In this document: one piece after another, positions 15,877 to 30,106 of the stretch | How positions within the stretch are numbered: the first letter of the stretch is position 1 | How the letters are laid out: every line of letters begins with the position of its first letter | Source of the DNA: Methanoregula sp. | Lineage (GTDB): Archaea > Halobacteriota > Methanomicrobia > Methanomicrobiales > Methanospirillaceae | Reading direction: 5' to 3' | DNA length: 46,939 bases | NCBI GenBank assembly: GCA_003141335.1 | Contig: PLLR01000026.1 | Span: 21,695 to 68,633, forward strand | The notes under the pieces: model-generated | Database searches by the model: none | What the model was told of the DNA's origin: nothing | What the model saw: only the letters and a program-made list of their open reading frames with translations | Translations under genes and position numbers: made by a program

Positions 15877-16647
15877 TTATACTGCACCGGGATTTTTTAT
15901 CATCAATGTACCTTTCCCCCGGTTTGCTACGTCGCCTTTGTACACATCTGCGGTGATCTTCCATTCAGGAAGCACCCGCTTGTCGATCTTTTCAAATGTG
16001 GGAATCATGTCATGAACCGTTCCAAGAATCACGCATGAACCCTCCTTCATGTTCGCGCAGGGACGGGTGGCATCCCCTTCGATAGTCAGCTGTCCACCCC
16101 GCATCTCTACACCGGGGAAATCTCCGGTGCTGCCATGGATATGCACCTCACCACCTGCAAGATATTCAGCACAGAAATCTCCGGCATTACCAAACACCTC
16201 CACTTTACCTCCCTGCATCCCTTTCTTCTCACCCCGGTATCCTGTTGCACAATAATGGCCGGCATTGCCCCGGCAGAGAATCGTCCCGCCCCGCATTTCG
16301 CGCCCGAGCCACGAATCGGCATTGCCAAGGATCTCGATCGTCCCGCCGCTCATGAAGTTCCCGCAGTGCATGCCGATGTCCCCTTCAATCACGATATTGC
16401 CGGTGTCCATGTATTCCCCGACGCGCTTTATCCGCGAAGTATCTCCTTTGAGCACAACTTCGATATTTTCCGGGGAGACGGCTGTCCCTTCGACAAAGAT
16501 CCAGAATAGTTCGGAGAGCGTGCGTTCCTTGTTACCCTCGAACACCACAAGGTCTGTACCTTTCAGGAAATTGCGGGGGATAATCGCTTCTGCTTCGATC
16601 GGGAGGTTGGGCTTACTGCGCACCTTGCTCTCGAGGATCACTCTCAT
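15877..16647 (-). CDS. fwdC: Formylmethanofuran dehydrogenase subunit C
   Basis: The 256-aa subunit is a beta-helix built of G-x-x-x-x-G-x-(V/I)-x-I-x-G-N-A repeats, as in the GltS alpha-subunit C-terminal domain, and packs FwdA and FwdB together in the known complex structure. Start ATG 16647 (MRVILESK) overlaps the fwdA stop by ATGA and has GGAGG upstream; an earlier in-frame start at 16671 lies inside fwdA. It is the last gene of the long hydrogenase-fwd unit. Confidence 0.95.
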   Translation of the reverse strand: MRVILESKVRSKPNLPIEAEAIIPRNFLKGTDLVVFEGNKERTLSELFWIFVEGTAVSPENIEVVLKGDTSRIKRVGEYMDTGNIVIEGDIGMHCGNFMSGGTIEILGNADSWLGREMRGGTILCRGNAGHYCATGYRGEKKGMQGGKVEVFGNAGDFCAEYLAGGEVHIHGSTGDFPGVEMRGGQLTIEGDATRPCANMKEGSCVILGTVHDMIPTFEKIDKRVLPEWKITADVYKGDVANRGKGTLMIKNPGAV

Positions 16648-18344
16648 GTAAATGCCTCCGTCTCTATGCACCGCCCGCGGGGGAGGTACACGTCCTGCAC
16701 CGGGTAATTGCTCATTCTCACGGTGTAGAACTGCTCAAATCTCTTGATAAATTCTGGATCGTTCTCCATTCTGAGATCCTCTGGTACCTTCGCATTCACC
16801 CAGAAAGTAGCGTTTGCACCATCAACAATGATCTCCCCGTCCCGCGATACCACACGCCCCCGCTTGATCGTGAAGCGGGTCTTCTGGAACCCTTCCACTA
16901 CTTTGCGGTATTCCCGTGCAGGGTCTACGGAATCCGTCCGGATCGGGTAGATGGCAATATCGGCTTCCGCACCGATTCCCAAGTGTCCTTTGCCCTGGTT
17001 GATGATGCCCAGTGCCTTTGCCTGCCCTGCCCGGGTCATGACTGCAATATCATGCCAGTCCATCTCCCGCTCAAGAGCACAGAGTGATGTCCTCCCCTCA
17101 GTGTCAGCATGGAGCGTAGCACATTCCTCATCACGGTACCGCTTGCTCATCAGGAGCCCGATCACTTCCGGGTACTTCACGAAGGGAGCGCCATTGGGAT
17201 TGTCCGTTTCGAGCAGGCACTGCCATGGACTTTTTGTGAGAAGCGCCAGTTCAAGACCGATTGCCCACATTATGCAGTTGACCGCACTCTTCTTGGAGTA
17301 CGTTACCGGTATGATACCGGATCCTGTTTCCAGCTCCACATCATGGTTGCTCCACTTGTTATGGTGAAGGCAGTGCAGATTAAACTCCATAGGGCCGTCA
17401 GCGGTCATGGTCATGGTCCGGCAGAACATGATCTGGCCCATGTCCATGACAATCTGGGGTTTGCTATTGACCGAACGTGTAATTTCTTCTGCCTTTGAAC
17501 AGATGTTGCGCCATGTCCCGCCACCGTATGCGTGGAACTGCACATGGGTGGCATACAGGGTCTGGCGGTTGGGATTTACGTCGGGTACGAGATCAAACGT
17601 GTCGAGCGTGGTCTGGTAATTCCCAGGCTTTCCGAGGTTATTGCAGTGCAGGTGGACCGAATGGGGGAGCTTGAGGAGTTCGTTTGCCTGGATCATGGTG
17701 GTAATGATCTCGGCAGGCGTCACATCAAAATGCGGGACCATTTCATGGATGCTGGTTACGTCCTCACCCCAGCCCCATGCCTCGGTTCCGCCAGGGTTGG
17801 TGAGTTTGATCGCGTAGCCTTTGACCGCGTTGAGCGTCCAGCCGACAATAGCAGCTGCCTTCTTTATGTTCTTCTCCCGTACGGCATCCATGACTGCCCA
17901 GTTGCCGTCGAAAAGGGTGTTTGCCAGCATGTCCTGGTGGGGGGTCGCCGTAAACTCTTCATGGGTGTGCCGGGCTTCAAGCGGTGCCATTGCACCTTCG
18001 AGCAGGGTCGTATAGCCCATGGCGCTGTACCGGTAGCTGTTCCCGAATGTAGTGGGGACGTAGTAACCGCTCGTTACATGCATCTTTCCGCGCCGCTGCG
18101 TCCTTCCCGCCCGCATATCCTCGGGGCTCATGTACCTCCCGAAGTTCACCTTGGTACCGCAGACATGGGTATGTGAGTCAATGCCACCGGGAAGCGTGAG
18201 GCACCGATGGGCATCAATCACCTCTGCCCGATCGGAAACTGATTCCACGATCCGACCGTCCCGGATCGCGATGTCCATGATATCACCGTTGATACCCCGG
18301 ATTGGGTCAATGACGCAGGCGTTTTTCACCAACAACTCAGTCAT
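16644..18344 (-). CDS. fwdA: Formylmethanofuran dehydrogenase subunit A
   Basis: A 566-aa amidohydrolase that transfers formate, made in FwdB, onto methanofuran. Visible are the metal-binding H58 and H60 of DSHTHVCG and a candidate carboxylated Lys in NAVKGYAIK (K175 or K180). Also present is the later EVIGLLMSKRY region. Length matches the family. It overlaps fwdB upstream by 8 nt and fwdC downstream by 4 nt. Confidence 0.97.
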   Translation of the reverse strand: MTELLVKNACVIDPIRGINGDIMDIAIRDGRIVESVSDRAEVIDAHRCLTLPGGIDSHTHVCGTKVNFGRYMSPEDMRAGRTQRRGKMHVTSGYYVPTTFGNSYRYSAMGYTTLLEGAMAPLEARHTHEEFTATPHQDMLANTLFDGNWAVMDAVREKNIKKAAAIVGWTLNAVKGYAIKLTNPGGTEAWGWGEDVTSIHEMVPHFDVTPAEIITTMIQANELLKLPHSVHLHCNNLGKPGNYQTTLDTFDLVPDVNPNRQTLYATHVQFHAYGGGTWRNICSKAEEITRSVNSKPQIVMDMGQIMFCRTMTMTADGPMEFNLHCLHHNKWSNHDVELETGSGIIPVTYSKKSAVNCIMWAIGLELALLTKSPWQCLLETDNPNGAPFVKYPEVIGLLMSKRYRDEECATLHADTEGRTSLCALEREMDWHDIAVMTRAGQAKALGIINQGKGHLGIGAEADIAIYPIRTDSVDPAREYRKVVEGFQKTRFTIKRGRVVSRDGEIIVDGANATFWVNAKVPEDLRMENDPEFIKRFEQFYTVRMSNYPVQDVYLPRGRCIETEAFT

Positions 18345-19632
18345 GGTCCCATCCCCCCCCGTTTAGGCGGTCATAGATCTTTTTTAAGAGTTCTGCGTCA
18401 TCGGGATACCCGCGTTCAATCACTTTTTTCAACCGTATGGGCACCCCGTCCATCCGGTACGCTGTTCCTGCGGCGTCAATGCCCGCTGCAGTGCAGGGAA
18501 TATGAATGCGGGAGAGGGCGGTTGTGGCATTCACATGCGGATCAATAATCACTGTTGGAATTTTTGCCAGGTGGGCAGCAGCAAGCCGGGGAAAGTTTGC
18601 TCCCGGGTCACTTGCCACGATAAGTGCGGCATCGCATTCACCCCTCCGCAGGATGTCAACAGCGGTCGTTTCACCCGGGTTGTAGAATGCAATGCCCCGG
18701 GCAAAATCGACAGCGAAGGGATACCCGGTCATCCACGTGAATACTTCATTGGAACCATAGACATTCCCGTGCCCCCTCATGGGTGAGATGACAAATTTCG
18801 TATGCCGGTTGAGTTCATCGGTGAGTTCAATGGCGTTCCTGACATTCTTGTATTTCCCCCGGCTCATGGTCAGCCCGAGACCGAAAAAGATCGCCCCGAA
18901 CTTTGCGTTTTTGCAGATCCCGGCAACCCGGATCAGCTGCTCTTTTGCAATACCGGCAACTTTTTTGGGGATGACTGACTCTTTCCCCCTCACGATTGCC
19001 CTCAGGGCGGAAAGAACGGCATAATCGCCTCCGGGTTCAACCTGCAGGAATTCATCGGCAATATTGGTGGTGTCATTCCTGCGGGTATCAACAACGATAA
19101 CCGTGCGTTCCCGCTGTGCCTCCGGAACAAAGAAGCCCGTAGCAAACGTAGTATACCTGCTCATGTGGCGGGGATGTGCCTCAATCGGGTTGCATCCCCA
19201 GTAGATGATCACATCAGCCCGGTTTTTTACCTGCCCGAGAGTACAGCCGGGATGGCCAACTTCCTGGATTGCAAGGATGGACGGGCCATGGCAGACGGTG
19301 CTCGTATTGTCGATAACCGCTCCGATCAGCTCAGCTATATGCACACCCACGCTCTGGGCTTCCCCGTGGGTGCTGCTCCACCCGTACAAGAGGGGCCTGT
19401 CTGCTTCTTTTAGGATATCTGCGGTCTCTTTAATCGCCTCATCGTACGAGATATCCTCCCAGCCGGTTTTGGTGCGCCGGATGGGGGTTGGCAGCCGGGT
19501 ATCATTCATGAACGTTGCCTCGGCAAGGGAGCAGCCGTTCTGCACCCGCACGACCCTGTCTCCCTCAACCTCAAGTTCGAGGTCATCGCAGAGACAACCG
19601 CAGAACGGGCAGACCACATCACTGACGATCAT
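18337..19632 (-). CDS. fwdB: Formylmethanofuran dehydrogenase subunit B
   Basis: The 431-aa catalytic subunit reduces CO2 to formate at a tungsten- or molybdenum-bis-pterin centre. Residues C8, C11, C15 and C34 form the 4Fe-4S site, and C114 in STVCHGP is the metal ligand, Cys here and not selenocysteine as in some methanogens. Sequence alone cannot distinguish W from Mo. Its downstream overlap with fwdA is 8 nt. Confidence 0.96.
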   Translation of the reverse strand: MIVSDVVCPFCGCLCDDLELEVEGDRVVRVQNGCSLAEATFMNDTRLPTPIRRTKTGWEDISYDEAIKETADILKEADRPLLYGWSSTHGEAQSVGVHIAELIGAVIDNTSTVCHGPSILAIQEVGHPGCTLGQVKNRADVIIYWGCNPIEAHPRHMSRYTTFATGFFVPEAQRERTVIVVDTRRNDTTNIADEFLQVEPGGDYAVLSALRAIVRGKESVIPKKVAGIAKEQLIRVAGICKNAKFGAIFFGLGLTMSRGKYKNVRNAIELTDELNRHTKFVISPMRGHGNVYGSNEVFTWMTGYPFAVDFARGIAFYNPGETTAVDILRRGECDAALIVASDPGANFPRLAAAHLAKIPTVIIDPHVNATTALSRIHIPCTAAGIDAAGTAYRMDGVPIRLKKVIERGYPDDAELLKKIYDRLNGGGWDHD

Positions 19633-20011
19633 AGCGCAGCCCCCCGATCTCTTCCATCAGTTCTCCGACACTCCGTATCGGCTCTTCGGTCGGCTCCACG
19701 TCTACGGACTGGCTTTTGAAGTCCGGCATGCCGGTGCCATGGGTTTCTGAGGAAATGATATGGTTGGCATACGGACCGATCGTCACAAAAATCTCACCCC
19801 GTGTTACGCCCTCTGCTGAACGGGCGCTCAGTACGACATGACCGGTAGGGGAGGTGATTCCGACCCTTGCTCCGTTCTCGATACCCAGTATCATCATATC
19901 CACAGGATTGAGGAAACAGGCAGAAGCAACGGCACGGTACGTATCCGATCCCTTATGTTCGACTGCTATTCCCTGCGGGACGGTGCGCCCGGTATTGAGG
20001 ATGCACTTCAC
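19619..20011 (-). CDS. fwdD: Formylmethanofuran dehydrogenase subunit D
   Basis: A 130-aa protein of the molybdopterin-dinucleotide-binding fold that completes the pterin site of FwdB: LNTGRTVPQG at the start, NPVDMMILGIENGARVGITSPTG, and GEIFVTIGPYANHI. It overlaps the preceding polyferredoxin by 4 nt and the following fwdB by 14 nt. Confidence 0.93.
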   Translation of the reverse strand: MKCILNTGRTVPQGIAVEHKGSDTYRAVASACFLNPVDMMILGIENGARVGITSPTGHVVLSARSAEGVTRGEIFVTIGPYANHIISSETHGTGMPDFKSQSVDVEPTEEPIRSVGELMEEIGGLRYDRQ

Positions 20012-20625
20012 TGCGATCCCTCCTGCACGGGCTGCTGGTATCCTTCAAGGATCCGGGCAATCCGGATGGCACCTGTCGGGCAACTGACTTCGCAGGTCTT
20101 GCAGCCTGTGCATTTATCCTCATGGATTACCACAATATCCCCTTCCTGCACCCGCATGATCACCTCATCGTTCGACGAATGCCCGCCTGCTCCCATCTGG
20201 GCGTCGATCCCCTTGTTGACCGGGCAGGCTGTGCAGCAGTTCCCGCAACCCGTGCAGAGTTCGAGGTCTATAGCGATGCGGAACGAAAAGAGCAGTGATG
20301 TCCCTTCGCGCTCCATAGTCTCAAGGATCCTCCCGCTTTTCAGCACCCCGTTCGGGCATGCCTCCACGCAGAGCCCGCAGCGGATGCAGTGCCCTTTATG
20401 GATCCGGGGCATCCAGCCGTCGCCGGCATGCACAACCTCAATCGCTCCCGGCGCCGGACAGGCCATCATACAGAAGAGAGCATGCTGGCAGGTCTTTCCG
20501 GTCGGTTCCGGAAATCCCCGGAAGTGTGAGGGGGTTACCAGCGGGGCGGTCTTTGCAAACAGGAACTTTTTAATCCACTCCGTGCGGGCGAATTCTTTCA
20601 GGTACCAGATCAGCGAAAGCCCCAT
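20008..20625 (-). CDS. Four-cluster polyferredoxin linking Eha hydrogenase and Fwd
   Basis: The 205-aa protein starts at ATG 20625, three bases past the stop of the large-subunit gene. It has four Cys groups: CQHALFCMMACP (near residue 46; unusual spacing), CIRCGLCVEACP, CTGCGNCCTACP and CTGCKTCEVSCP, thus room for three to four 4Fe-4S clusters. The N-terminal segment FARTEWIKKFLF resembles NuoI/EchF membrane-docking helices. In position it corresponds to EhaP/EhaQ of other methanogens, and also to FwdF/FwdG. It probably receives electrons from the hydrogenase small subunit and hands them to FwdB, or to soluble ferredoxin. Confidence 0.88.
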   Translation of the reverse strand: MGLSLIWYLKEFARTEWIKKFLFAKTAPLVTPSHFRGFPEPTGKTCQHALFCMMACPAPGAIEVVHAGDGWMPRIHKGHCIRCGLCVEACPNGVLKSGRILETMEREGTSLLFSFRIAIDLELCTGCGNCCTACPVNKGIDAQMGAGGHSSNDEVIMRVQEGDIVVIHEDKCTGCKTCEVSCPTGAIRIARILEGYQQPVQEGSQ

Positions 20626-20626
20626 G

Positions 20627-21712
20627 TTACCGCTCCGTACACGCGATACAGGGATCTGCAGAAACAAACGTCGATGTGACATCGGCTATCGAATCTGCCC
20701 CTATGATCATCTCGTGGCAGCAGGCCTCGATGTTCATGATGGACGGGGTCTGTATCTGGATATCAACGATCCGACCGAACTCGTCGCTCTTAATAAAGTA
20801 CGTCAGCTCTCCGCGGGGCGCCTCGCCGCTGTATCTCGTCTCTCCCGCTTTGCAGACACCGCCGCCCCGTATGACTCCTGCGGGGAGATCCTGCAGGCAT
20901 TTCCTGATAAGGCCGATGCTCTGGAAGACCTCATCGAACCGGACCATCACCCGCGCAAAGTTATCGCAATCCGTACGGCTGACCGGCACAAACCCGAGTT
21001 GCCGGTAGGTTGGATGGTTGAGCCGGCAGTCAGCTGTAATCCCGCTTGCCCGTGCGGTTGGGCCGACAACATGGGCCCGCTGTGCTGCTTCCTGCGTGAG
21101 GATCCCGACACCCCGGCTGCGCAGTGCGATCATCGGACCTTCGGCAAACATCCCCGAATACCTGCGCAGATCCCGCTCGATCCGGTCGAGCGATGCTTGT
21201 AACAATTCTGCATCATTGCGGGGAATATCACACCGGACACCCCCGGGAATTATGTAGGCACACGTTACACGGGCACCGGTCAGGCGTTCAAGCTGATCCA
21301 TCACCTGCTCCCGCAGGTCGAGCAGGTACATCCCCAGTGTCTCGTGCTCGATGGTGTAGCAGTACGAGAAGTTGGCAAGAAGGTGACTCTGCATCCGGTC
21401 AAGTTCATTAACGATCACGCGGAGATATGCGGCGCGTGGTGGGACGGAAATACCGCTGATCTGTTCCATTGCCTCGATAAAGACCATATTATGGATGACT
21501 GAGCAGATCCCGCAGACACGTTCTGCAAGGAACATGACTTCCTGCCACGGGCGACCTTTCATGATCCGCTCGATCCCCTTCTTCATGTATCCAAGCTCCA
21601 CTTCGGCACCGACAATGCGTTCGCCTTTTGCCTCGCACTTGAGCCGGGCCGGTTCTTTAAAGCATGGATGAATGGGGCCCAGAGGAATATTGACATCCAC
21701 CGTCCGCTTCAT
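20627..21712 (-). CDS. ehaO: Energy-converting [NiFe] hydrogenase large subunit (Eha type)
   Basis: A 361-aa subunit with both Ni-ligating pairs: C67 and C70 in RVCGIC, and C355 and C358 in DPCIAC. It ends three residues after the last Cys, so no cleavable C-terminal extension is present, as is usual in group 4 hydrogenases. IPLGPIHP at the start and GGVRCDIPRND are group 4 features. Presence of all four Cys argues for real hydrogenase activity, unlike NuoD. It overlaps the small-subunit gene by 4 nt. Confidence 0.93.
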   Translation of the reverse strand: MKRTVDVNIPLGPIHPCFKEPARLKCEAKGERIVGAEVELGYMKKGIERIMKGRPWQEVMFLAERVCGICSVIHNMVFIEAMEQISGISVPPRAAYLRVIVNELDRMQSHLLANFSYCYTIEHETLGMYLLDLREQVMDQLERLTGARVTCAYIIPGGVRCDIPRNDAELLQASLDRIERDLRRYSGMFAEGPMIALRSRGVGILTQEAAQRAHVVGPTARASGITADCRLNHPTYRQLGFVPVSRTDCDNFARVMVRFDEVFQSIGLIRKCLQDLPAGVIRGGGVCKAGETRYSGEAPRGELTYFIKSDEFGRIVDIQIQTPSIMNIEACCHEMIIGADSIADVTSTFVSADPCIACTER

Positions 21713-22164
21713 GGGTGACTTTCCTCCCAGTTGGCAAAGACCGAATCACGCACAGAAAGGATCGCCTGAAGGATCTCGGTGGGTCGGGGTGGGCAGCCCG
21801 GTACTTCTGCTGCGATCGGGATATGCTTTTTTACCGGCGGGTCAACAAAGGATCCCCTGCGATTGAACAGGCACCCGGAGATCGGGCAGTTGCCGATGGC
21901 AACTGCTGCTTTGGGATCGGGAATCTTCTCCCAGACCATGGCAAGTTTCTCCTCCCATCCGGGGGTATAGGCACCAATGACAAGGAGGACATCTGCCTCC
22001 CGCGGGTTATTGTGGACAAAGATACCGTACTGTTCGATGTCGTAGCGGGGTGCTAAGCAGGCAAGCACCTCGATATCGCAGCCATTGCAGGAGCCGACAT
22101 CAACATATGCCACATGGATTGAGCGTGCCCTGACCATGTTTTTTATCCGCTGGAGAAGGGTCAT
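21709..22164 (-). CDS. ehaN: Energy-converting [NiFe] hydrogenase small subunit
   Basis: The 151-aa NuoB-like subunit carries one proximal 4Fe-4S cluster. Ligands are C26 and C29 in GSCNGCD, the Cys of IGNCPISG and the Cys of VPGCPPRP. It passes electrons from the Ni-Fe centre to the polyferredoxin. It starts within the stop of the DUF1959 gene (ATGA). Confidence 0.92.
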   Translation of the reverse strand: MTLLQRIKNMVRARSIHVAYVDVGSCNGCDIEVLACLAPRYDIEQYGIFVHNNPREADVLLVIGAYTPGWEEKLAMVWEKIPDPKAAVAIGNCPISGCLFNRRGSFVDPPVKKHIPIAAEVPGCPPRPTEILQAILSVRDSVFANWEESHP

Positions 22165-22550
22165 CTTCGCAATTCCTCCCGTATCCTTTCCCTGCCATAC
22201 GCAATGGCATCTTCCATGGCAGTACCTGCACGTACACGGTCGCTTACTGCATGGAAAATGGATTCCATTGCGGCACCGGACATAATCTGGAGATACAGGG
22301 TATATTTTTCCCGTCCCAGTACCAGTGCAACCGGATCATCCTGATCAGCATGAGCATCAGCCATTTCAACTCTGGCCGGGAGGTTTTCCAGCAGGATCAT
22401 GTCAAAATGCTCGATCAGGTATCTTCGTAATTCCTGGACCGGGATATCCAGTTCCGTTGCGATCTGACGCACCAGAATATCATGCCGATAAGCAACGAGA
22501 ATCCGGTATTTCTGGGGCACAAGATCTTTCTCATACAGGTAGGTGGTCAC
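22161..22550 (-). CDS. ehaM: DUF1959 hydrogenase accessory subunit (EhaM-like)
   Basis: A soluble, charged 129-aa protein without Cys clusters or membrane helices. The DUF1959 signature is seen in KYRILVAYRHDILVRQIATEL and in the C-terminal helix MEDAIAYGRERIREEL. In other methanogens this family is encoded in the eha operon just before the small subunit, as here. The function is unknown, and it is a good marker that this complex is Eha and not Ech or Mbh. Confidence 0.85.
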   Translation of the reverse strand: MTTYLYEKDLVPQKYRILVAYRHDILVRQIATELDIPVQELRRYLIEHFDMILLENLPARVEMADAHADQDDPVALVLGREKYTLYLQIMSGAAMESIFHAVSDRVRAGTAMEDAIAYGRERIREELRR

Positions 22551-22789
22551 AGAACCCCCCCGAACTTCAGCAGAGCGTAGACCATGAACAGCAGCACTGC
22601 GGCCCAGAGCGCAACTATCTCCGACATATGGAGCCGGTGTTCATCGTGGATCAGATAATAGGCTGTGGCAATGGCGAGGACAATTGCAACAACAATTCCT
22701 TCAGACCAGATTGCCGGCCGGTCGAGGATCTGGGCGATGCTGATAAGAATATACATTGCCCCCCCGAAGAGAATTGCTTCGCGGATCAT
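22547..22789 (-). CDS. Small membrane subunit of Eha complex (EhaK/EhaL-like)
   Basis: Read from ATG 22789 (ATGA overlap with the ehaJ stop) this gives an 80-aa protein with two or three membrane segments (AILFGGAMYILISIAQIL; GIVVAIVLAIATAYYL; ALWAAVLLFMVYALLKF). The longer frame to 23017 is only read-through over ehaJ. Position matches EhaK and EhaL, of which only one is present here; I cannot tell which. Confidence 0.75.
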   Translation of the reverse strand: MIREAILFGGAMYILISIAQILDRPAIWSEGIVVAIVLAIATAYYLIHDEHRLHMSEIVALWAAVLLFMVYALLKFGGVL

Positions 22790-23634
22790 GGATGCACCAC
22801 CACCAGAACAACCGCTGCATAGACCAGCATCAGACCGGTTACCATCATCTGGATGGTCACCGAATCGAAGGGGGACATCATCGGGGTGATCGCACAGGAA
22901 AAGGCGAGGAGCACAATAAGGACGATCATACCTGCCAGGAGCCAGGGCAGGGTCAGCGGCCCGATAAATACGGTAAGGAAGACAGCGAGCAGGACATAGG
23001 TTTTCAGACCATTGCAAACCTCGAGCCCGGCGCGCCAGATACCGAAATGTTCGGTCTTGTACCCGCTCACCAGTTCCTTTGCCTCAACTATGGAAAAGGG
23101 GCCAAAGGGCATTTTGGAGAGAATTACCAGAAACATTGCGCATGCTGCGGGAAATGCAGTAACGAGCAGTGGGCCGGATACCTGCTGGTACTGCATGATG
23201 GAAGAGAGATCCAACGAGTGCGTGAAGACAGCGATCACCGCAACACTGACAAAGAGGGGAATCTCCGATGCTGCTGAGATGACCGACCTGACACCGCCAT
23301 ACTTACCATAGGGCGATCCCGAAGAGAGCCCAAAACCGTGTTCTACGATCTTGTGGAGCATATAGATCCCCAGAATGACCAGCAGGCTCCCGCCACTGAC
23401 CAGCACATAAAATGCTGCAGACCAGATACCGATGGCGATCAGCACAACACCGACAAAGAGAGTCGGACTCGCGGTTATGGGAACCCAGGTAGTCTTGAAG
23501 GAGAACTTGAGCATATGCAGGATCTCCTGCCATATTGGCGGCCCGGGCCGGCGCTGGATCCGGGCGATCAGTTTCCGATGGATCCCAAGGAGGAGCAGGC
23601 CAAAGAGCGTGGCAAGGACAAGTTCTGCGATCAT
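22786..23634 (-). CDS. ehaJ: Membrane subunit, NuoH/EchB-like (EhaJ)
   Basis: The 282-aa protein has seven to eight membrane helices and the NuoH hallmark R-I-Q-R-R-P-G-P-P near residue 30, the later E-I-P-L-F loop, and F-S-I-V-E-A-K-E-L-V-S-G-Y-K-T-E, the quinone-loop region in complex I. This subunit couples the hydrogenase module to ion flow. ATG 23634 is two bases after the ehaI stop; a GTG at 23661 is also possible. Confidence 0.9.
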   Translation of the reverse strand: MIAELVLATLFGLLLLGIHRKLIARIQRRPGPPIWQEILHMLKFSFKTTWVPITASPTLFVGVVLIAIGIWSAAFYVLVSGGSLLVILGIYMLHKIVEHGFGLSSGSPYGKYGGVRSVISAASEIPLFVSVAVIAVFTHSLDLSSIMQYQQVSGPLLVTAFPAACAMFLVILSKMPFGPFSIVEAKELVSGYKTEHFGIWRAGLEVCNGLKTYVLLAVFLTVFIGPLTLPWLLAGMIVLIVLLAFSCAITPMMSPFDSVTIQMMVTGLMLVYAAVVLVVVHP

Positions 23635-23635
23635 A

Positions 23636-23845
23636 TCAGTACCCGATGAAAGGTATGTCACCTCCAGATTGTCCTGCCATCCACCAGAAAAAGAGCGCTA
23701 AGACCGTGACGGGGAATGCCACGACAAGCAGGGCTGCACAGACAGGGAACGGTATCAATCCCGTGTAGTATAAGCCCGATGAGATCATGCAGGTACCCGC
23801 ACCCGCCCAGAAAATCCGTGCTGCCGTCGTTTTCTTCATTCTCAT
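23636..23845 (-). CDS. ehaI: Small membrane subunit (EhaI-like)
   Basis: A ~69-aa protein of basic N-terminus (MRMKKTTAARI) and two hydrophobic segments ending with WWMAGQSGGDIPFIGY. The start is one of ATG 23845, ATG 23839 or GTG 23848; all overlap or touch the ehaH stop. Assignment to EhaI is by place in the operon. Confidence 0.7.
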   Translation of the reverse strand: MRMKKTTAARIFWAGAGTCMISSGLYYTGLIPFPVCAALLVVAFPVTVLALFFWWMAGQSGGDIPFIGY

Positions 23846-24501
23846 CACCCCAGCATTACAACCTCAACAACCCGCAAAAAGATCAGGAGCGAGGAGAGCG
23901 AGCACATGATCACGTAAGGAGCTCCCGGGGCGCGGAACATCTCTGCTTTTGCCGCGTAGAACGGGGCCATTCCCTCACCAATCACCCCGATCACGAGCAT
24001 CGCCTTTGCTATCAGCGGAACAGTAGGTAGTGTACCATTCATCAGCTCAATCATAGAGAGCGAGCCGGTCGCCGCTGCGTAGACTGCTGCACCCGCAAAG
24101 AGGGGGACCGTTGCCGCGAGAGCAACAAGCCCGTACTGGTACGCGGCATCCTGCACGTGCGGGCTTTTTACTGCAGCGACAATGCCGACGTTGGTAATCC
24201 CGACCATTGCGGTGAAGAGGGTGAAATTGAAGATATCCCCGGTCACCATCGCACCCATCGAGGCAAGACCGCAGGCGATCGCCATGAAGCGCCGGAACCG
24301 CATTTCAGAAATACTTATATCCTTTGCCCGGTATGCATCCCCACCGAAGGCGATGTCTACCTGTTTTTCCGGACGGCTGATTATGACGAGGACAGTAAAT
24401 GTCAGCGCAAGGAGAAAGAGCGTGATTGTGTAAGGTGTGAAGTACACGAGTTCATCGCCGAACTCGAGGATATAGTAGGGTATGCCACCGATGCTAGTCA
24501 C
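23845..24501 (-). CDS. ehaH: Membrane subunit, ion-pump type (EhaH-like)
   Basis: About 218 aa with six or so helices. Proton-pumping NuoN/NuoL-like traits are GDIFNFTLFTAMVGITNVGIVA, a Lys in LIAKAMLVIGVIGEG and the helix-break EGMAPFYAAKAEMF. It is much shorter than NuoL, as is EhaH. The start chosen is GTG 24501, because GGTGATC, complementary to the 16S 3' end, ends three bases earlier. It overlaps ehaG by 8 nt. Confidence 0.8.
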   Translation of the reverse strand: MTSIGGIPYYILEFGDELVYFTPYTITLFLLALTFTVLVIISRPEKQVDIAFGGDAYRAKDISISEMRFRRFMAIACGLASMGAMVTGDIFNFTLFTAMVGITNVGIVAAVKSPHVQDAAYQYGLVALAATVPLFAGAAVYAAATGSLSMIELMNGTLPTVPLIAKAMLVIGVIGEGMAPFYAAKAEMFRAPGAPYVIMCSLSSLLIFLRVVEVVMLG

Positions 24502-25102
24502 GGTGATCACCCCACATGGTACCCACAAGGGACATCTTGACGGTCACCTTGAGTACTATACCTACGGCAGCACCCATAAGAGCGATGAACCAGTATTGCG
24601 GGAGGAACATAAAAACAAAGAAAGCAAAGATCCAGATTGCCCATGAGATGCCGCTTGCCATCTCGAGCATATTCAGGTTCTCCTTGTATCCCCGTGACAT
24701 GAAGTAGAACACAAGCCCGAGCCCGGCGACACCTCCTCCGGTAAATCCTGACAACAGCAACCCGTACACGACAAGAAATACCGAGATTATCATCGGTGCG
24801 TCCGCCATTTGGATCACCTCAATGTTCAGTCCCTTAACCGGTCGTTCTTTTAATCGTTCCTTGGTGATGTAGATCTGGGAAAGGGCAAGGAGTTCTGCAA
24901 TCCCTACGGTCAGCCCGGGGAGGACGAGCGCCTCGGCAAGGTCAGTGCCCAGCAGGGCAATTACACCCAGTGTCGTGATCTCAACAAGGTCAAGGAGCAG
25001 CAACCGGTGCAGGTCATCGGTCTCGATGGCAAGTGCCACAAACCCGATCACCCCGGAGATCATGACAATCAGCAACCCGACGTTGTACTGCCCCCACATC
25101 AT
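24494..25102 (-). CDS. ehaG: Membrane subunit (EhaG-like)
   Basis: A 202-aa protein with about five to six hydrophobic helices and a charged loop (YITKERLKERPVKGLNIEVI). DDLHRLLLLDLVEITTLGVIALL is typical of the EhaG family. Two ATG codons (25102, 25099) overlap the ehaF stop; AAGGTGG just before acts as ribosome site. Confidence 0.8.
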   Translation of the reverse strand: MMWGQYNVGLLIVMISGVIGFVALAIETDDLHRLLLLDLVEITTLGVIALLGTDLAEALVLPGLTVGIAELLALSQIYITKERLKERPVKGLNIEVIQMADAPMIISVFLVVYGLLLSGFTGGGVAGLGLVFYFMSRGYKENLNMLEMASGISWAIWIFAFFVFMFLPQYWFIALMGAAVGIVLKVTVKMSLVGTMWGDHRD

Positions 25103-25542
25103 CCCACCTTCCGGTAAAGGAATGAAGCGATCGCAAACGCGATCAGCAATATCGTTGGTTCCACTACGGTATCGAGCCCGCGGGTATTATAGAGGATTTC
25201 GTCAATGATGCCCCCCGGGTGGGCAACAATCGTTGTCCCGAGGTGCTGTGTCGTTTGAGCAAGGTAGAAGGAGAATGGGGTGAGATACGAAGTTACCAGT
25301 CCGGCAGTAGGCGAGTTCTCAGGGTATTGGGCATGGATCGTGACCTGGGTAAATGGCGGCCCTCCACGATCGTACGGGTCAAGGGTGCTATTGCGGTCTA
25401 TTGTCTTGGGGTAAAGCTGGTTTTGTTGGTAGCTGAGAGGCAGCATCAGAATGCCAGCGAGAAAAATAATGGCGCAGGCACCCGCAAAGAGCGGCACGAT
25501 ATTTTCATAGTTGCACAGGAAGTGTGAGATCCGCCGTATCAT
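25099..25542 (-). CDS. ehaF: Membrane subunit with extracellular loop (EhaF-like)
   Basis: The 147-aa protein has an N-terminal helix (IVPLFAGACAIIFLAGILML), a long polar loop with LDPYDRGGPPFT and HLGTTIVAHPGGIIDEILYNTRGLDTVVEP, and a C-terminal helix. This two-helix layout is the one found in EhaF. ATGA overlaps on both sides. Confidence 0.78.
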   Translation of the reverse strand: MIRRISHFLCNYENIVPLFAGACAIIFLAGILMLPLSYQQNQLYPKTIDRNSTLDPYDRGGPPFTQVTIHAQYPENSPTAGLVTSYLTPFSFYLAQTTQHLGTTIVAHPGGIIDEILYNTRGLDTVVEPTILLIAFAIASFLYRKVG

Positions 25543-25793
25543 CCAATACCCTCCTTCTTCTGCATAACGCGTACGAAGATATATGTTGAGAGAACGGATA
25601 CTGCAGCGAAGGTAAAAAGCGCGAGTGCCTCATTATAATGAAGCATGACCAGCAGTAGTCCCCATCCCGGGATCTCCAGGTTGATCAGCTGAGTCAGGTA
25701 ATTTTTTGGCCGGGGGAAGGCAGCGGCGATAGTTCCTGCGAACAGGACAAGAAGCCCTATAACGAATTCCGGGGTGTAGAGTTCCGCGGTCAA
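25539..25793 (-). CDS. ehaE: Small membrane subunit (EhaE-like)
   Basis: An 84-aa protein of two to three helices with FPRPKNYLTQLINLEIPGWG between the first two. It overlaps both neighbours by 4 nt. The identity rests on order in the operon and on similarity to small Mrp/MnhG-like subunits. Confidence 0.75.
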   Translation of the reverse strand: MTAELYTPEFVIGLLVLFAGTIAAAFPRPKNYLTQLINLEIPGWGLLLVMLHYNEALALFTFAAVSVLSTYIFVRVMQKKEGIG

Positions 25794-26020
25794 ACCTGCA
25801 CCCTCCGGCAGACCATCAGGGTAAATATCGTAGAGAGCGGTGCAATGAGCGCAATGGCTATGGCAACGTCAAGAAAACCCCGTTCAACTATGAAGGGGAA
25901 AACTCCTGCGATAAGAACCGAAAGCGAAATAAGTTTGTCGAAAGGGTCACGGTTGAAAATTGCCGCAGTCATGCCTGTCAGGATGAGTATAACTGACGCA
26001 ATCATCACGATATCATTCAT
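25790..26020 (-). CDS. ehaD: Small membrane subunit (EhaD-like)
   Basis: A 76-aa protein, start ATG 26020 inside the ehaC stop. It contains NRDPFDKLISLSVLIAGVFPFIVERGF, a pattern of the MnhF/MnhC-like small antiporter subunits and EhaD. Three membrane helices. Confidence 0.75.
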   Translation of the reverse strand: MNDIVMIASVILILTGMTAAIFNRDPFDKLISLSVLIAGVFPFIVERGFLDVAIAIALIAPLSTIFTLMVCRRVQV

Positions 26021-26259
26021 GGTCTTTTGAGGCCCCCTGCCCATGTGCTTGCAATTGCATTTGATTCCAGCGTAGATCCGACAAAATACGCAGCTGCTGC
26101 TGCGATGGTGAGTGGGTGTGGTAACAGGAGTGCAATAATCCCGGTAACAGCAAACGAGACCACATTCAGAAAGGGGAGTTTGCGCATGCTATTCCGCTCG
26201 GTAATAACCCGCAGTGCTGCATACACCGCAATTACTGCACATATATAGAGTGCGATCAT
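26017..26259 (-). CDS. ehaC: Small membrane subunit (EhaC-like)
   Basis: An 80-aa protein starting with MIALYICAVIAVYAALRVITERN, then KLPFLNVVSFAVTGIIALLL and a final ALESNAI-like stretch (STLESNAIAST). ATG 26259 overlaps the ehaB stop (ATGA); the longer open frame is read-through over ehaB. Confidence 0.75.
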   Translation of the reverse strand: MIALYICAVIAVYAALRVITERNSMRKLPFLNVVSFAVTGIIALLLPHPLTIAAAAAYFVGSTLESNAIASTWAGGLKRP

Positions 26260-26765
26260 GTGCACCCCCGCAACAACCGGCACCTGATCTTCCAGAGCCA
26301 CGCAATAAGCCTGCTCGCATGGACAGAAGATAATCCCTGGATAGTAAGGATGGCAATCACCATACCGGCGATGAAATCGGAAGCTGCAAACCACCCTGAC
26401 TGGACAGCCCCGTATACGATGAAGGTGGCAGTGATACAGCCTGTTGTTCCGGCATAGCCGGGATCGTAACAGATCCGGTTACCGATATAGACGAGCAGTG
26501 CGGCAAAAAGGCCACCGGGCAGACCTGCGCAGTATACACCGCAGCCTGCAAGAAGGGTTCCCGCCGATGCATCGGGGGAGGAGACGATATTACCCATCAT
26601 GTACCCCCCGTTCAGCTTTCCACCGCCTTTTTCAACTTCCTGTGCGATTGCGGTTGCCCCGGAAACACCCCCACGCTCCGGTAGTTTGAAGATCAGGTCA
26701 ATGATCATGAAGTTGAACCAGCAGATGAGAGCGGCAATAAGAATCCGGATGGGTTCATCAAGCAT
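26256..26765 (-). CDS. ehaB: First membrane subunit of the unit (EhaB-like)
   Basis: A 169-aa protein with four to five helices and a polar segment (QEVEKGGGKLNGGYMMGNI) before a Gly-rich core AGTLLAGCGVYCAGLPGGL. ATG 26765 is preferred over the GTG nine bases earlier, since GGTG then sits at proper spacing. No EhaA-like gene is seen upstream, which makes this the first gene of the operon. Identity as EhaB is by order and size. Confidence 0.7.
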   Translation of the reverse strand: MLDEPIRILIAALICWFNFMIIDLIFKLPERGGVSGATAIAQEVEKGGGKLNGGYMMGNIVSSPDASAGTLLAGCGVYCAGLPGGLFAALLVYIGNRICYDPGYAGTTGCITATFIVYGAVQSGWFAASDFIAGMVIAILTIQGLSSVHASRLIAWLWKIRCRLLRGCT

Positions 26766-26845
26766 GGGATGCACCGTAAAACTCTGGTTAACACTGTAGA
26801 TCAGAAGGAAAACGGATAAAGGTTCTGATATTGACGAATTCCTTT

Positions 26846-26959: not shown

Positions 26960-27358
26960 TTATTTTCCTATGCGTTCCGTACATTTCAGCGCCTTGCGCC
27001 CTCGATCGGTGATGCTGTAGATGATCCAGTTACCCTGCTGTTCGCCGGAAATAAAATCCTGCTCTTTGAGAATGTTGAGATGGTACGAAAGTTTCGAATC
27101 TGCAATATGAACCACACCCTTGATGACACAGACGCAGAGTGGTTGGGAGAGAAGTGAGTACATGACAGTGAGCCGGATGGGGTCAGCCAGTGCCTGGTGG
27201 AGCCGGCTGCCCGCATGAAGTGCAGATGCATCCGGTATCCGTGCGAGGAGCCCTTCCATCCCGCCCTGTTTTTCGAGTTCCTTTTGTATGGTATCCGGGA
27301 GATCTTTGGAAAAATCGCAGCATTTTACCTTTGGAGAAGGTGTCAGTTTCTGTACCAT
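26960..27358 (-). CDS. arsR: ArsR-family arsenic/metal-responsive repressor
   Basis: The 132-aa protein has a winged helix at about residues 50-125 and the Cys pair C75-V-C77 (QPLCVCVIK) at the place of the ELCVCDL As(III) site of ArsR. Two more Cys (C13-C14) lie near the N-terminus and C126 near the end. SKLSYHLNILKEQ is the recognition helix. As(III) or Sb(III) binding is expected to release DNA. It is divergent to the island it likely controls; the gap holds two copies of TTCA-N8-TGAA, one between its own TATA box and start. Confidence 0.92.
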   Translation of the reverse strand: MVQKLTPSPKVKCCDFSKDLPDTIQKELEKQGGMEGLLARIPDASALHAGSRLHQALADPIRLTVMYSLLSQPLCVCVIKGVVHIADSKLSYHLNILKEQDFISGEQQGNWIIYSITDRGRKALKCTERIGK

Positions 27359-27364
27359 AGAAGA

Positions 27365-27380
27365 TTCAAATTAATATGAA
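27365..27380. promoter_or_regulatory. ArsR operator candidate A
   Basis: TTCA-AATTAATA-TGAA, a palindrome with 8-nt spacer, lies just downstream of a minus-strand TATA-like ATTATATAT (about 27388-27396) for arsR, where a bound repressor would block the arsR start (autoregulation). Confidence 0.65.
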
Positions 27381-27416
27381 ATGGTAAGATATATAATCTT
27401 GCCCTGCTCACATTAA

Positions 27417-27432
27417 TTCAATAAAATTTGAA
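27417..27432. promoter_or_regulatory. ArsR operator candidate B
   Basis: TTCA-ATAAAATT-TGAA has the same arms and spacing as copy A. It overlaps the AATAAAATT box that would drive the FTR-like gene, starting 34 nt downstream. Confidence 0.7.
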
Positions 27433-27466
27433 ACACTAACTGTGAAGTAAAGGAATTTTTGATACT

Positions 27467-27835
27467 ATGGATAACGATCGAAAAGAAAAATCCTCATCGG
27501 ATACCAATGCCGCGGATCCTGTATCCCAGCCTTCAGCCGATAATCTGATAGAAAAGATCACATCATGGGCTCACCGGTATGCAGAAAAAAACGGCTGGGT
27601 GCTGAATCCCGATGAGCAGGAACGCACGACCGTACTTCACGGGCTTGCATCAAACCGTGCACAGTTCGGCAAGCAGTACTGTCCCTGCCGGCTGCGGAGC
27701 GGGGATTTGGAGAAAGACAAAAAGATCATCTGTCCGTGCATCTATCACCGTGATGAGATTGCAAAGGACGGGCACTGCCACTGCCGGCTGTTCTTCAAAG
27801 ACGATGTAACCCCATCTCATGAGGTGTCTAAATGA
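27467..27835 (+). CDS. Ferredoxin:thioredoxin reductase catalytic-subunit-like protein
   Basis: A 122-aa protein with the full Cys set of the FTR catalytic subunit: CPC, 14 residues, CPC, 12 residues, CHC (plant forms have 16 and 8). Four of these Cys hold a 4Fe-4S cluster and two form the redox disulfide. The ~40-residue N-terminal part is polar and Ser-rich. FTR passes electrons from ferredoxin to thioredoxin; here the likely receiver is the CPNC thioredoxin-like protein at 29855. It is the first gene of the island, behind operator B. Confidence 0.88.
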   Translation: MDNDRKEKSSSDTNAADPVSQPSADNLIEKITSWAHRYAEKNGWVLNPDEQERTTVLHGLASNRAQFGKQYCPCRLRSGDLEKDKKIICPCIYHRDEIAKDGHCHCRLFFKDDVTPSHEVSK

Positions 27836-27874
27836 TACAATGGACGTGGTCGAATCGCCCGGTGAGGTGTACTG

Positions 27875-28837
27875 ATGTTGCCTGATTATTTACAGCAATT
27901 CGCCGACTGGCTTACCTACGCGGTCTTGGGGCTCTCCCGGAACAGCCCGCTCGCATCGTCCGTGAACTTCTTTGTCTATGACTCGCTCAAGGTCACGCTC
28001 ATGCTCGCGATCATTGTCTTTGGAGTTGCGATTGTCCGCACGTACATCACCCCGCAGAAGGTGAAAAAGTGGGTGGCGGGTCGCACCGAAGGAGTTGGCA
28101 ACGTGCTTGCCGCCATTCTCGGTATTCCCACGCCGTTCTGTTCTTGTTCGGCGGTTCCGCTCTTCATCGGGTTTGTCGAGTCTGGTGTGCCGCTCGGGAT
28201 CACGTTCTCGTTCCTGATCGCATCTCCTCTCATCAACGAGATCGCCGCTGCAATGCTGCTCGCCATGTTCGGCTGGGAGATCGCGGCGCTCTATATCATA
28301 TCGGGTCTGATTATCGCGATTCTCGCGGGGATCATCATCGGCCGTCTCCACCTTGAGGGCGAGGTTGAGGAGTTTGTGTACAAGTGCAAGCTGCATGATC
28401 TTGCAGAAAAGGAGATGACCTGGAACGACCGGCTCATGTTTGCCAAGAACGAATCGAAAGACATTACACTCCGGGTCTTACCGTATATCCTGCTCGGTAT
28501 CGCCATCGGAGCGGTCATCCACGGATATGCCCCTGCGGACTTCCTTGCAAACATTGCCGGGCCGGACAATCCATTCGCCGTTCCGATTGCGGTGTTGATC
28601 GGCATCCCGCTCTATGCCAATGCAGCAGGAATGATCCCGATCATGGAAGTACTGACCGCAAAAGGGATGGCAATGGGCACGGCACTTGCGTTTATGATGG
28701 CGGTGATCGGGCTCTCTCTGCCTGAGATGATCATCCTGAGAAAGGTTCTCAAGATCAAACTGCTGGCGATCTTTGCAGGAATCCTGTTCGTCGCGTTCAC
28801 GCTGACCGGCTATCTGTTCAACGCAGTGCTCGGGTGA
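27875..28837 (+). CDS. ArsP/DUF318-type permease
   Basis: A 320-aa protein with about eight helices and the family signature TPFCSCSAVPLFIGF (adjacent Cys for metalloid passage), then SPLINEIAAAMLLAMFGWE. The long loop 165-200 is charged. The ArsP group exports trivalent organoarsenicals such as methylarsenite, which fits the ArsM methylase in the same island. Other members of COG0701 have unknown cargo. Confidence 0.85.
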   Translation: MLPDYLQQFADWLTYAVLGLSRNSPLASSVNFFVYDSLKVTLMLAIIVFGVAIVRTYITPQKVKKWVAGRTEGVGNVLAAILGIPTPFCSCSAVPLFIGFVESGVPLGITFSFLIASPLINEIAAAMLLAMFGWEIAALYIISGLIIAILAGIIIGRLHLEGEVEEFVYKCKLHDLAEKEMTWNDRLMFAKNESKDITLRVLPYILLGIAIGAVIHGYAPADFLANIAGPDNPFAVPIAVLIGIPLYANAAGMIPIMEVLTAKGMAMGTALAFMMAVIGLSLPEMIILRKVLKIKLLAIFAGILFVAFTLTGYLFNAVLG

Positions 28838-28875
28838 CGGGGAAAAGGAGCAACAAGAAAAATACAGTGATCCTG

Positions 28876-29127
28876 ATGGCAGACAAACCGTGCTGTCCCG
28901 CTGATGCGCTCCGGAGGATCCGCTAGATCAATGTGAACGGGATTCCCACAGGTATCATCATGCTGGATGAAAGCATTTGCGAGGTGAGGGAAGTTGGGCT
29001 AACCGGTGAACGTGAGATCCGGGAAGCGCTCATGAAGCGGGTGAAGATCTACAACTATATTCCGCCCGGTGTGGCTGATGCGTATGCGGAAGCGATCATG
29101 AAGGAGTATCATGCCGCAAAAAAGTGA
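28876..29127 (+). pseudogene. Small island gene interrupted by in-frame TAG
   Basis: From ATG 28876 the frame reads MADKPCCPADALRRIR, meets TAG at 28924-28926, and goes on without further stop for 66 codons (INVNGIPTGIIMLDESICEV... EYHAAKK). The two parts are in the same frame and only a single base change would join them. The second part could be made alone from GTG 28933, with GGAGGATC 14 nt before it. The Cys pair and the later Cys suit a metal-linked island protein, but I do not recognise the family. Alternatives are a young nonsense mutation, read-through, or a sequencing error. Confidence 0.6.
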
Positions 29128-29251
29128 GGACGACCGAGTGGGTGAAAGTTTGGTGATACCTCCAACCCGGCTGGGTGATATCTGCAATCCCTGCTACAGG
29201 AAGTTTCCGGGATTCATGAGCGGAGAGATGGAGATGAAATTACATGACTGA
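29111..29251 (+). CDS. 46-aa Cys-pair small protein
   Basis: ATG 29111 opens a 46-codon frame overlapping the previous gene by 17 nt and the DUF2703 gene by 8 nt, so the genes are nested as in an operon. The product has ICNPCYRKFPG near residue 24, a CxxC pair. Family unknown. Length and overlap support a real gene, but without comparison this is moderate. Confidence 0.45.
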   Translation: MPQKSEDDRVGESLVIPPTRLGDICNPCYRKFPGFMSGEMEMKLHD

Positions 29252-29687
29252 AGGAGCAAATAACCCTGAAACCGGAATCGTACAGCCTGGGGGTACACCA
29301 ATAAAACGGCTGGTCATTGAATGGCGTCACCTTGTTGTAGACGGTGCAACCTGCGAGCGGTGCGGGGCAACGGGCAGCGAGGTCAGGACAGCAGTCGATA
29401 CTCTCACAAAAGAACTGGGTGCACTTGGCATCAAAGTCGTAATCAAAGAGACTCCGCTTGGCACGGATCAGCTGAAGGAATCTAATAAAATCCTGCTGAA
29501 CGGTAAACCGCTTGAGGATCTCATCGCCGGGGGCGTAACTGAGACTCCCTGCAATTCCTGTTCGACGTTGATCGGGACTTCGGCATGCTGCCGGGCGGTC
29601 GAAGTTGACAAACAGCAGTATGAGGAGATCCCCGCCTGGCTGATCACGCGGGCGGCGTACCGTGCTGTTGGACTTCGGGAAGGATGA
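29244..29687 (+). CDS. DUF2703 protein
   Basis: The 147-aa protein has the DUF2703 layout: WRHLVVDGATCERCGATG, IKVVIKETPLG, then PCNSCSTLIGTSACCRAVE. The paired Cys groups and its thioredoxin-like size suggest a thiol or metalloid-binding job. Family members often sit with ars genes. A T10 run at 29707-29716 after it may end the transcript. Confidence 0.85.
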   Translation: MTEGANNPETGIVQPGGTPIKRLVIEWRHLVVDGATCERCGATGSEVRTAVDTLTKELGALGIKVVIKETPLGTDQLKESNKILLNGKPLEDLIAGGVTETPCNSCSTLIGTSACCRAVEVDKQQYEEIPAWLITRAAYRAVGLREG

Positions 29688-29703
29688 TGGTGAAGGCAGG
29701 GTG

Positions 29704-29718
29704 TGCTTTTTTTTTAGT
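29704..29718 (+). terminator. T-run terminator
   Basis: A long T tract (CTTTTTTTTTTAG) lies 20 nt after the DUF2703 stop and before the next promoter with its operators, dividing the island into two transcripts. Confidence 0.5.
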
Positions 29719-29742
29719 GTTCCCCAATCACCAAAGCGATGC

Positions 29743-29762
29743 GTTTCAAAATAGTATGAAAC
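29743..29762. promoter_or_regulatory. ArsR operator candidate C
   Basis: GTTTCA-AAATAGTA-TGAAAC is the best palindrome of the set, with 6-base arms and the same 8-base spacer, in front of the thioredoxin-like gene. Confidence 0.75.
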
Positions 29763-29790
29763 AGTTACCTTTATCATGTATTCTTCCTTA

Positions 29791-29808
29791 GTTTCAATAA
29801 AATTCAAA
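29791..29808. promoter_or_regulatory. Promoter/operator half-site D
   Basis: GTTTCAATAAAATT repeats exactly the 12-mer TTCAATAAAATT of operator B, but the right arm is CAAA, not TGAA. AATAAAATT probably also serves as TATA box for the gene at 29855. Confidence 0.55.
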
Positions 29809-29854
29809 ATACTTTCAGATTCACAGAACATACCATTCACAATTTCAGGATGCG

Positions 29855-30106
29855 ATGAAGATCATGGTAACCATTGAAGTACTCGGAACCGGCTGTCCAA
29901 ACTGCAAGCGACAGATGAGCAATGTTGAAATGGCGGTCAAACAGCTCGGCATTACTGCAGAGATCAAAAAGATCGAGGAGATCTCCCAGATCATGGAACG
30001 CGGGGTGATGATGATGCCGGCGATTATTGTAGATGGAGATTTGAAGGTCTCCGGAAGGATCGCTGATGTGCCGGAGATTAAGAAGATCCTGACCGGGGGT
30101 GCGTAA
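29855..30106 (+). CDS. Thioredoxin-like small CPNC protein
   Basis: An 83-aa glutaredoxin/thioredoxin-fold protein of the methanogen small redox disulfide group: GTGCPNCKR at residues ~12-20, a cis-Pro in MMMPAIIVDG, and a short C-terminal helix. It probably accepts electrons from the FTR-like enzyme and reduces arsenate or protein disulfides. That link is inferred from co-regulation by operators B and C. It is the first gene of the second island transcript. Confidence 0.85.
   Translation: MKIMVTIEVLGTGCPNCKRQMSNVEMAVKQLGITAEIKKIEEISQIMERGVMMMPAIIVDGDLKVSGRIADVPEIKKILTGGA

Follow-up and report, generated by a model that had tools for sequence, protein, structure and literature searches.

The window analysed here is a stretch of 46,939 nucleotides (nt) from Methanoregula sp. 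(GenBank assembly GCA_003141335.1, contig PLLR01000026.1, positions 21,695 to 68,633). On its minus strand, from position 26765 down to 15877, it carries 18 consecutive genes of the same direction, which encode the Eha hydrogenase, a ferredoxin with four cluster motifs (here called pFd) and the subunits FwdD, FwdB, FwdA and FwdC of formylmethanofuran dehydrogenase. Judged from its sequence, pFd is an EhaP/NuoI-type ferredoxin (residues 1-112 approximately) fused to the subunit FwdG (residues 113-205 approximately). Eha is usually depicted as delivering its low-potential electrons for the first step of methanogenesis via free ferredoxin. The fusion suggests that the electrons would instead move along a built-in wire and not with a loose carrier, and we give a probability of roughly 70% to the operon encoding one membrane-bound, ion-driven H2:CO2/methanofuran oxidoreductase, similar to formate hydrogenlyase, in which pFd is the internal wire.

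The linkage of eha and fwd genes is already published. It was reported in 2009 (eha beside fmd/fwd) for Methanocorpusculum, Methanoculleus and Methanospirillum (Anderson 2009, PMC2686161), in 2017, along with a second, Hdr-linked fwd set, for M. parvum (PMC5563889), and in 2024 for a metagenome-assembled genome of Methanoculleus (PMC11201294). In their accessible text these three papers propose a ferredoxin, shared or dedicated, as the carrier, and there is no mention in that text of a FwdG fusion or of a direct complex. What is new in this analysis is the pFd fusion, and no report of an EhaP-type ferredoxin fused to FwdG was found in the open-access literature. According to one structural group FwdG could not serve as a BLAST query (PMC11493965), and its likeness to so many ferredoxins may be the reason why it escaped notice.

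The ferredoxin pFd

The amino-terminal half of pFd found its best PDB sequence matches in HycF (7z0s_F, 3.9e-9), NuoI and MbhN, which dock as ferredoxin subunits on hydrogenases of group 4 or on complex I. Its nearest neighbours in a tree include the first EhaP module of class I (support 100/76 with L217 and 86/0 with L218). By this likeness, and by the place of its gene directly after that of the large subunit, it was assigned to the EhaP/NuoI type.

For the carboxy-terminal half the best matches among short two-cluster PDB chains were FwdG chains, 9sfi_U (1.2e-15) and 5t5i_G (1.5e-13). The FwdF chain 7bkb_K outranks them, but by a score that is summed over many weak repeats (best independent E-value 0.005). 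This half also shares with FwdG the insert GxGxxxxDxVIMxVxxG between the two cluster motifs. Ferredoxins resemble each other, and the identity with FwdG was therefore submitted to four stricter tests.

A hidden Markov model (HMM) of FwdG was built independently of the order, from six FwdG of other archaea only, each located within a fwd cluster. It gave a median of 67.3 bits for the pFd carboxy-terminal domains (n=77), compared with 57.9 bits for the bona fide FwdG of the Methanomicrobiales themselves (n=52); the other ferredoxins all remained below 32 bits (FwdF 23.5, HdrA 18.4 and class I EhaP 15-20). When the FwdG profile of the order was run against eight whole genomes, pFd ranked second behind FwdG in six, the genome of the window being one of them (45.4 bits, against 38.6 for FwdF); it was third in M. 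hungatei and unlisted in M. marisnigri. The AlphaFold model of pFd, with a predicted local distance difference test value of 89.1, was matched by Foldseek to FwdG 5t5i_G with a template modelling (TM) score of 0.85, at 2.1 A and 39% identity over 80 residues, and other matches, such as the ordinary 2[4Fe-4S] ferredoxin domain of a pyruvate oxidoreductase (9bt4_H), reached a TM score of 0.59. Finally, in a tree of two-cluster modules the pFd carboxy-terminal domains fall among FwdG, with moderate support from few columns. A chance ferredoxin resemblance was rejected in view of the independent HMM, the whole-genome ranking and the fold match, and the possibility that all Eha ferredoxins carry a FwdG domain in view of the low scores of class I EhaP.

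The position of the gene is that of both proteins at once. It occupies the slot of class I EhaP after ehaO and the slot of fwdG before fwdD, an order fwdG-fwdD being also seen in L157 and L167; in Methanothermobacter the order is fwdHFGDACB (PMC3087415). A scan of GTDB genomes with a pFd profile returned, beyond the Methanomicrobiales, almost solely eha loci and fwd clusters.

Ca. Mnemosynella (Archaeoglobi; L168, L169 and L215) also has an Eha cluster with an EhaP-FwdG fusion, with ftr nearby in L168 and hdrC/hdrB-like genes in L169. PMC9635834 deals with the Eha of this clade and mentions "different ferredoxins" in Eha. In the tree the FwdG domains of these fusions and of those of the Methanomicrobiales are not one clade, and the two may have been joined independently. 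A second fusion of the EhaP-FwdG type, encoded by an open reading frame of 256 residues with 50% identity to pFd and a score of 66 bits with the independent HMM of FwdG, was observed in G197 (L252:8773-9540, about 2224772-2225539 of C1), where it adjoins neither eha nor fwd.

Conservation of the operon in the Methanomicrobiales

The comparison of gene order in the Methanomicrobiales, proposed in the earlier note, came out in its favour, although the linkage as such was known since 2009. The named loci nearest to that of the window are from metagenome-assembled genomes of Methanoregula. Counting the window, 63 linked loci, which represent six families, share the same order, and in 56 of them pFd and fwdD overlap by 4 nt; an order and an overlap that recur so often are therefore more than chance. 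Neither fwdF nor a separate fwdG is present in the Eha-linked set of any linked locus examined, and no other FwdG-like gene in these loci scored above 22 bits.

Two recurrent departures were noted. In Methanocorpusculum pFd is followed by fwdA and fwdC, and in L109, L207 and L209, loci of Methanocorpusculum/Methanocalculaceae relatives, ehaB is directly preceded by a fused FwdD-FwdB gene. In a Methanoplanus/Methanolacinia-like group ehaO-pFd is retained, but the Eha-type fwdDBAC adjoins the fwd set of the Hdr type. The two sets lie side by side in L112-L114.

The ligand and catalytic residues were counted in 70-77 aligned sequences. The RxCGxC and DPCxxC ligand motifs of EhaO and the cluster cysteines of EhaN were 100% conserved (77 rows), and so were the CxxCxxxC motif and active-site Cys of FwdB and the metal-site motifs of FwdA (HxH, Lys, His and Asp). 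The set thus has FwdA, FwdB, FwdC and FwdD of a formylmethanofuran dehydrogenase, with their catalytic residues in place.

Eha and the Eha-type FwdB are also found together across the order. Of 135 genomes with a completeness of 90% or more, 107 encode Eha and 28 do not. The Eha-type FwdB is absent from 27 of these 28, which gave no match better than one of the Hdr type (E between about 1e-130 and 1e-147); G095, the one exception, carries it at a contig start. A close FwdB match is present in 106 of the 107 genomes with Eha (all except G199, as read from the match table); for Methanocorpusculum and in a few other cases, this match may represent the fused FwdD-FwdB. In the genus of the window Eha is patchy (12 of 38 genomes, several single-contig ones, G158 and G159 among them, being without it), and Eha and the Eha-type FwdB occur together in those 12 genomes and neither in the rest.

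Other fwd sets and the electron source of FwdB

The genome of the window contains two FwdB genes. The second belongs to a set with the order fwdG-fwdF-hdrC-hdrB-hdrA-mvhD-fwdD-fwdB-fwdA-fwdC-mcr and with ftr divergent upstream, and it is only in this Hdr-linked set that FwdF and a free-standing FwdG are encoded. The fwd set of the operon has neither and is not complete. The earlier note had held that a second, complete and major fwd set, together with a lack of Fwd in the membrane fraction, would speak against a complex; the first half of this is what the genome presents, since nothing is missing from the Hdr-linked set, which is probably the major one in view of its place beside the bifurcating reductase and mcr. 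As this second set has the only fwdF and fwdG, the question becomes what feeds the FwdB of the Eha set. In known Fwd complexes subunit G, which transfers the electrons, is where FwdF docks (PMC11656701). The simplest reading would be that in the Methanomicrobiales FwdF and free FwdG have been replaced by a hydrogenase ferredoxin carrying FwdG.

A different answer, in line with the published proposals (PMC2686161, PMC5563889), is that Eha reduces an ordinary soluble ferredoxin, that the operon only co-regulates the genes and that FwdDBAC borrows FwdG and FwdF of the Hdr-linked set. The single genuine FwdG and FwdF of the genome could indeed serve both sets, and the eha-fwd linkage was lost in some genera. 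However, this leaves unexplained why a hydrogenase ferredoxin should have a FwdG domain that outscores the FwdG of the order itself, why pFd sits in the fwdG slot and why fwdG and fwdF are missing from the set wherever the linked loci were examined, and we regard it as unlikely. Alternatively, the FwdG domain of pFd could have its docking partner in the Fwd of the Hdr-linked set (FwdB2) or in the Hdr supercomplex; Eha would then supplement the main bifurcating machine, and FwdDBAC of the operon would be a spare isoenzyme. The adjoining sets of L112-L114 and the retention of pFd in Mnemosynella with no fwd beside it would fit this, but the recurrent 4-nt overlap joins pFd to fwdD1, and it is FwdB1, not FwdB2, that comes and goes with eha, which makes such a docking very improbable.

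Further fwdG-fwdD-B-A-C sets, placed beside an FdhA-like gene, were observed in L157 and L167, from G191 and G159, which are Eha-less genomes of the genus of the window; they suggest that every fwd set of the order may have an electron source of its own. A third type of Fwd, in which FwdD and FwdB are seemingly fused in an open reading frame of 589-658 residues, was observed in L115, L254, L255, L256, L257 and L258, and it is this type that precedes ehaB in L109, L207 and L209; no FwdG-like gene was found near this set, and the idea that it has a nearby FwdG of its own found no support. In the FwdB of Methanocalculus-type genomes (G012-G014) a selenocysteine at an in-frame TGA was considered and rejected, the codon being an ordinary stop in an over-long alignment (L094).

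Proposed mechanism

In the wired enzyme that we propose, H2 would be oxidised at EhaO/EhaN and CO2 reduced to formylmethanofuran at FwdBD/FwdA. Direct fuelling of Fwd by H2 oxidation has been described as impossible (PMC11656701); since the reducing power of H2 by itself is too low, the reaction would have to be driven by the ion gradient through Eha, and an inward flow of ions through EhaH and EhaJ would push the electrons to about -500 mV. Their path would lead from H2 through EhaO, EhaN, the amino-terminal and the carboxy-terminal half of pFd and the FwdB cluster to the W/Mo-pterin. Both halves of pFd are expected to dock, the first as the hydrogenase-docking 2[4Fe-4S] module of Eha and the second as the FwdG subunit which hands the electrons to FwdB. 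One covalent wire of four clusters would then join Eha and FwdDBAC, in place of separate FwdG and FwdF, and no exchange of free ferredoxin would be required, much as in an ion-driven formate hydrogenlyase with the formate being passed on to methanofuran.

The earlier note had seen in the operon a supplier, a wire and a consumer that form a physical complex. The genomic part of this proposal is borne out and the EhaP/NuoI-FwdG fusion adds an argument to it; that the hydrogenase and the pterin enzyme assemble as one stable membrane complex we infer from this fusion. The role is likely to be an anaplerotic top-up of formylmethanofuran when bifurcation falls short, which would be independent of the Hdr-bifurcation set that carries most of methanogenesis. 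The reverse operation, as a formylmethanofuran:H+ hydrogenlyase making H2 and pumping ions at an excess of formylmethanofuran (for example on formate), would be allowed by modules that can all in principle be reversed, as formate hydrogenlyase suggests, but is scarcely to be expected in an order that lives by CO2 reduction and for an Eha to which an anaplerotic, reductive role is ascribed (Lie et al. 2012, cited after PMC5563889).

Several observations weigh against one wired enzyme. The genera of L098-L104 keep pFd with eha though fwdDBAC has moved away, and in Ca. Mnemosynella pFd stands with eha and without an adjacent fwd; the linkage is therefore not obligatory, and fusion and operon are separable in evolution. 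The clade of FwdG and pFd has a support of only 90/84 and contains two long-branch outsiders, one of which is a class I EhaP module. The co-occurrence of Eha and FwdB is in part shared ancestry of a vertically conserved operon, from which linked genes are easily lost together. Moreover, the second Cys position of cluster motif 1 in pFd is occupied by Cys in 49 of 76 sequences, the others having Ala (16), Glu (6) or His (5). Methanoregula has Ala there (window 20455-20490, residues 46-57), so that the amino-terminal half does not have two complete cluster motifs, and an Ala in the place of a ligand of the first cluster is odd in a low-potential wire.

With these points considered, we lean, with some reservation, towards the view that the Methanomicrobiales can also enter methanogenesis by another route, independent of both bifurcation and ferredoxin. 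On this view Eha and Fwd would be a single membrane-bound enzyme, a "formylmethanofuran hydrogenlyase", wired by the natural EhaP-FwdG fusion and driven directly by the ion gradient; the related fusion in Ca. Mnemosynella suggests that FwdG may be an exchangeable plug to different electron sources. The covalent hydrogenase-FwdG fusion makes direct wiring a specific proposal that is testable in cultured carriers (M. marisnigri, M. hungatei). If true, direct wiring would set the stoichiometry and the energy cost of the anaplerotic step and account for the retention of two or more fwd sets in these genomes, and a natural H2-to-formylmethanofuran enzyme would be of interest for CO2 conversion.

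Gene content and junctions

The operon starts at the ATG of ehaB at 26765 (or alternatively at a GTG at 26774) and ends with the stop of fwdC at 15877, the order being ehaB to ehaJ, two small Eha genes, ehaN, ehaO, pFd, fwdD, fwdB, fwdA and fwdC (Table 1). All six Eha-specific Pfam families (DUF2105-2109 and PF10125) are present in order, which places the hydrogenase in Eha (group 4h).

Table 1. Genes of the eha-fwd operon of the window, in order of transcription
Gene and product	Position	Strand	Basis of the assignment
ehaB, membrane protein, 169 residues	26256..26765	-	position and conservation in the order; no Pfam match
ehaC	26017..26259	-	PF09882 DUF2109, E 1.4e-30
ehaD	25790..26020	-	PF09881 DUF2108, 6.7e-22
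ehaE	25539..25793	-	PF09880 DUF2107, 2e-24
ehaF	25099..25542	-	PF09879 DUF2106, 9.1e-57
ehaG	24494..25102	-	PF09878 DUF2105, 2.2e-65
ehaH, NuoN/antiporter-like fragment	23845..24501	-	PF10125, 7e-85
ehaI, small membrane protein	23636..23848	-	position and conservation only; no Pfam match
ehaJ, NuoH-like	22786..23634	-	PF00146, 4.1e-31
ehaK/L-like small membrane protein	22547..22789	-	position only; no Pfam match
ehaM-like (DUF1959)	22161..22550	-	PF09218, 1.7e-09
ehaN, hydrogenase small subunit	21709..22164	-	NuoB family, 6.2e-30; conserved cluster cysteines
ehaO, [NiFe] large subunit	20627..21712	-	Complex1_49kDa and NiFeSe_Hases; RxCGxC and DPCxxC
pFd, four-motif ferredoxin, 205 residues	20008..20625	-	PDB search, FwdG profile/HMM, AlphaFold and Foldseek, tree
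fwdD, molybdopterin dinucleotide-binding	19619..20011	-	PF01568; NF042908 1e-30, below curated cut-off
fwdB, W/Mo-pterin CO2-reducing subunit	18337..19632	-	TIGR03129 3.6e-184, above curated cut-off
fwdA, formyl transfer to methanofuran	16644..18344	-	TIGR03121 2.5e-235, above curated cut-off
fwdC	15877..16647	-	TIGR03122 8.6e-71, above curated cut-off

The earlier description of about 18 genes, nearly all overlapped, agrees with what was found: 15 of the 17 junctions are overlaps (eleven of 4 nt, two of 8, one of 14 and one of 1), and ehaI/ehaJ and ehaO/pFd are separated by gaps of 1 nt. The overlap it had placed at 20008-20011 is exactly there, as the GTGA shared by pFd and fwdD, but the start of the ferredoxin had to be corrected from 20682 to 20625. 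The 4-nt overlap leaves no room in this junction for a separate promoter before fwdD, which it had named as an objection, though a site could lie inside pFd. A scan for the promoter TTTAWATA gave no match near the operon; a candidate promoter that remains putative, CCTATAAAAGG, lies some 90 nt ahead of ehaB. Upstream of the operon (26960-30106) we observed what appears by inspection to be a metal/metalloid-type cluster, with an ArsR-family regulator (minus strand), a predicted permease (27875-28837, plus strand) and a small thioredoxin-like protein (29855-30106, plus strand).

Comparison with known systems

The Eha (group 4h) of Methanothermobacter and Methanococcus has the same order B-C-D-E-F-G-H-J-...-N-O and the same amino-terminal ferredoxin module after ehaO. 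In class I Eha, however, the protein that follows ehaO has 346-407 residues and ends in generic polyferredoxin repeats, whereas the Methanomicrobiales protein has a FwdG domain at its end and is followed in the operon by fwdDBAC.

With FwdABCDFG (5t5i, 7bkb) the operon shares FwdA, FwdB, FwdC and FwdD with full catalytic motifs and the FwdG domain, but the Eha-linked set is without FwdF and without free FwdG, the FwdG domain being fused to the ferredoxin module of the hydrogenase. In the F420-reducing Fwd of Ca. Ethanoperedens (8rja, PMC11493965) a dedicated electron module likewise stands in place of FwdF; there this module is an F420 reductase (FwdI), and here it would be the hydrogenase ferredoxin fused to the FwdG domain.

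The likeness to formate hydrogenlyase (HycBCDEFG-FdhF), read here from the genes, lies in a membrane-bound group 4 [NiFe]-hydrogenase, HycF-like ferredoxin domains and a pterin enzyme acting on CO2 or formate. The present system differs in its Eha subunits, in a fused FwdG instead of HycB, in its product, which would be formylmethanofuran made via FwdA, and in its direction, which is most likely that of CO2 reduction.

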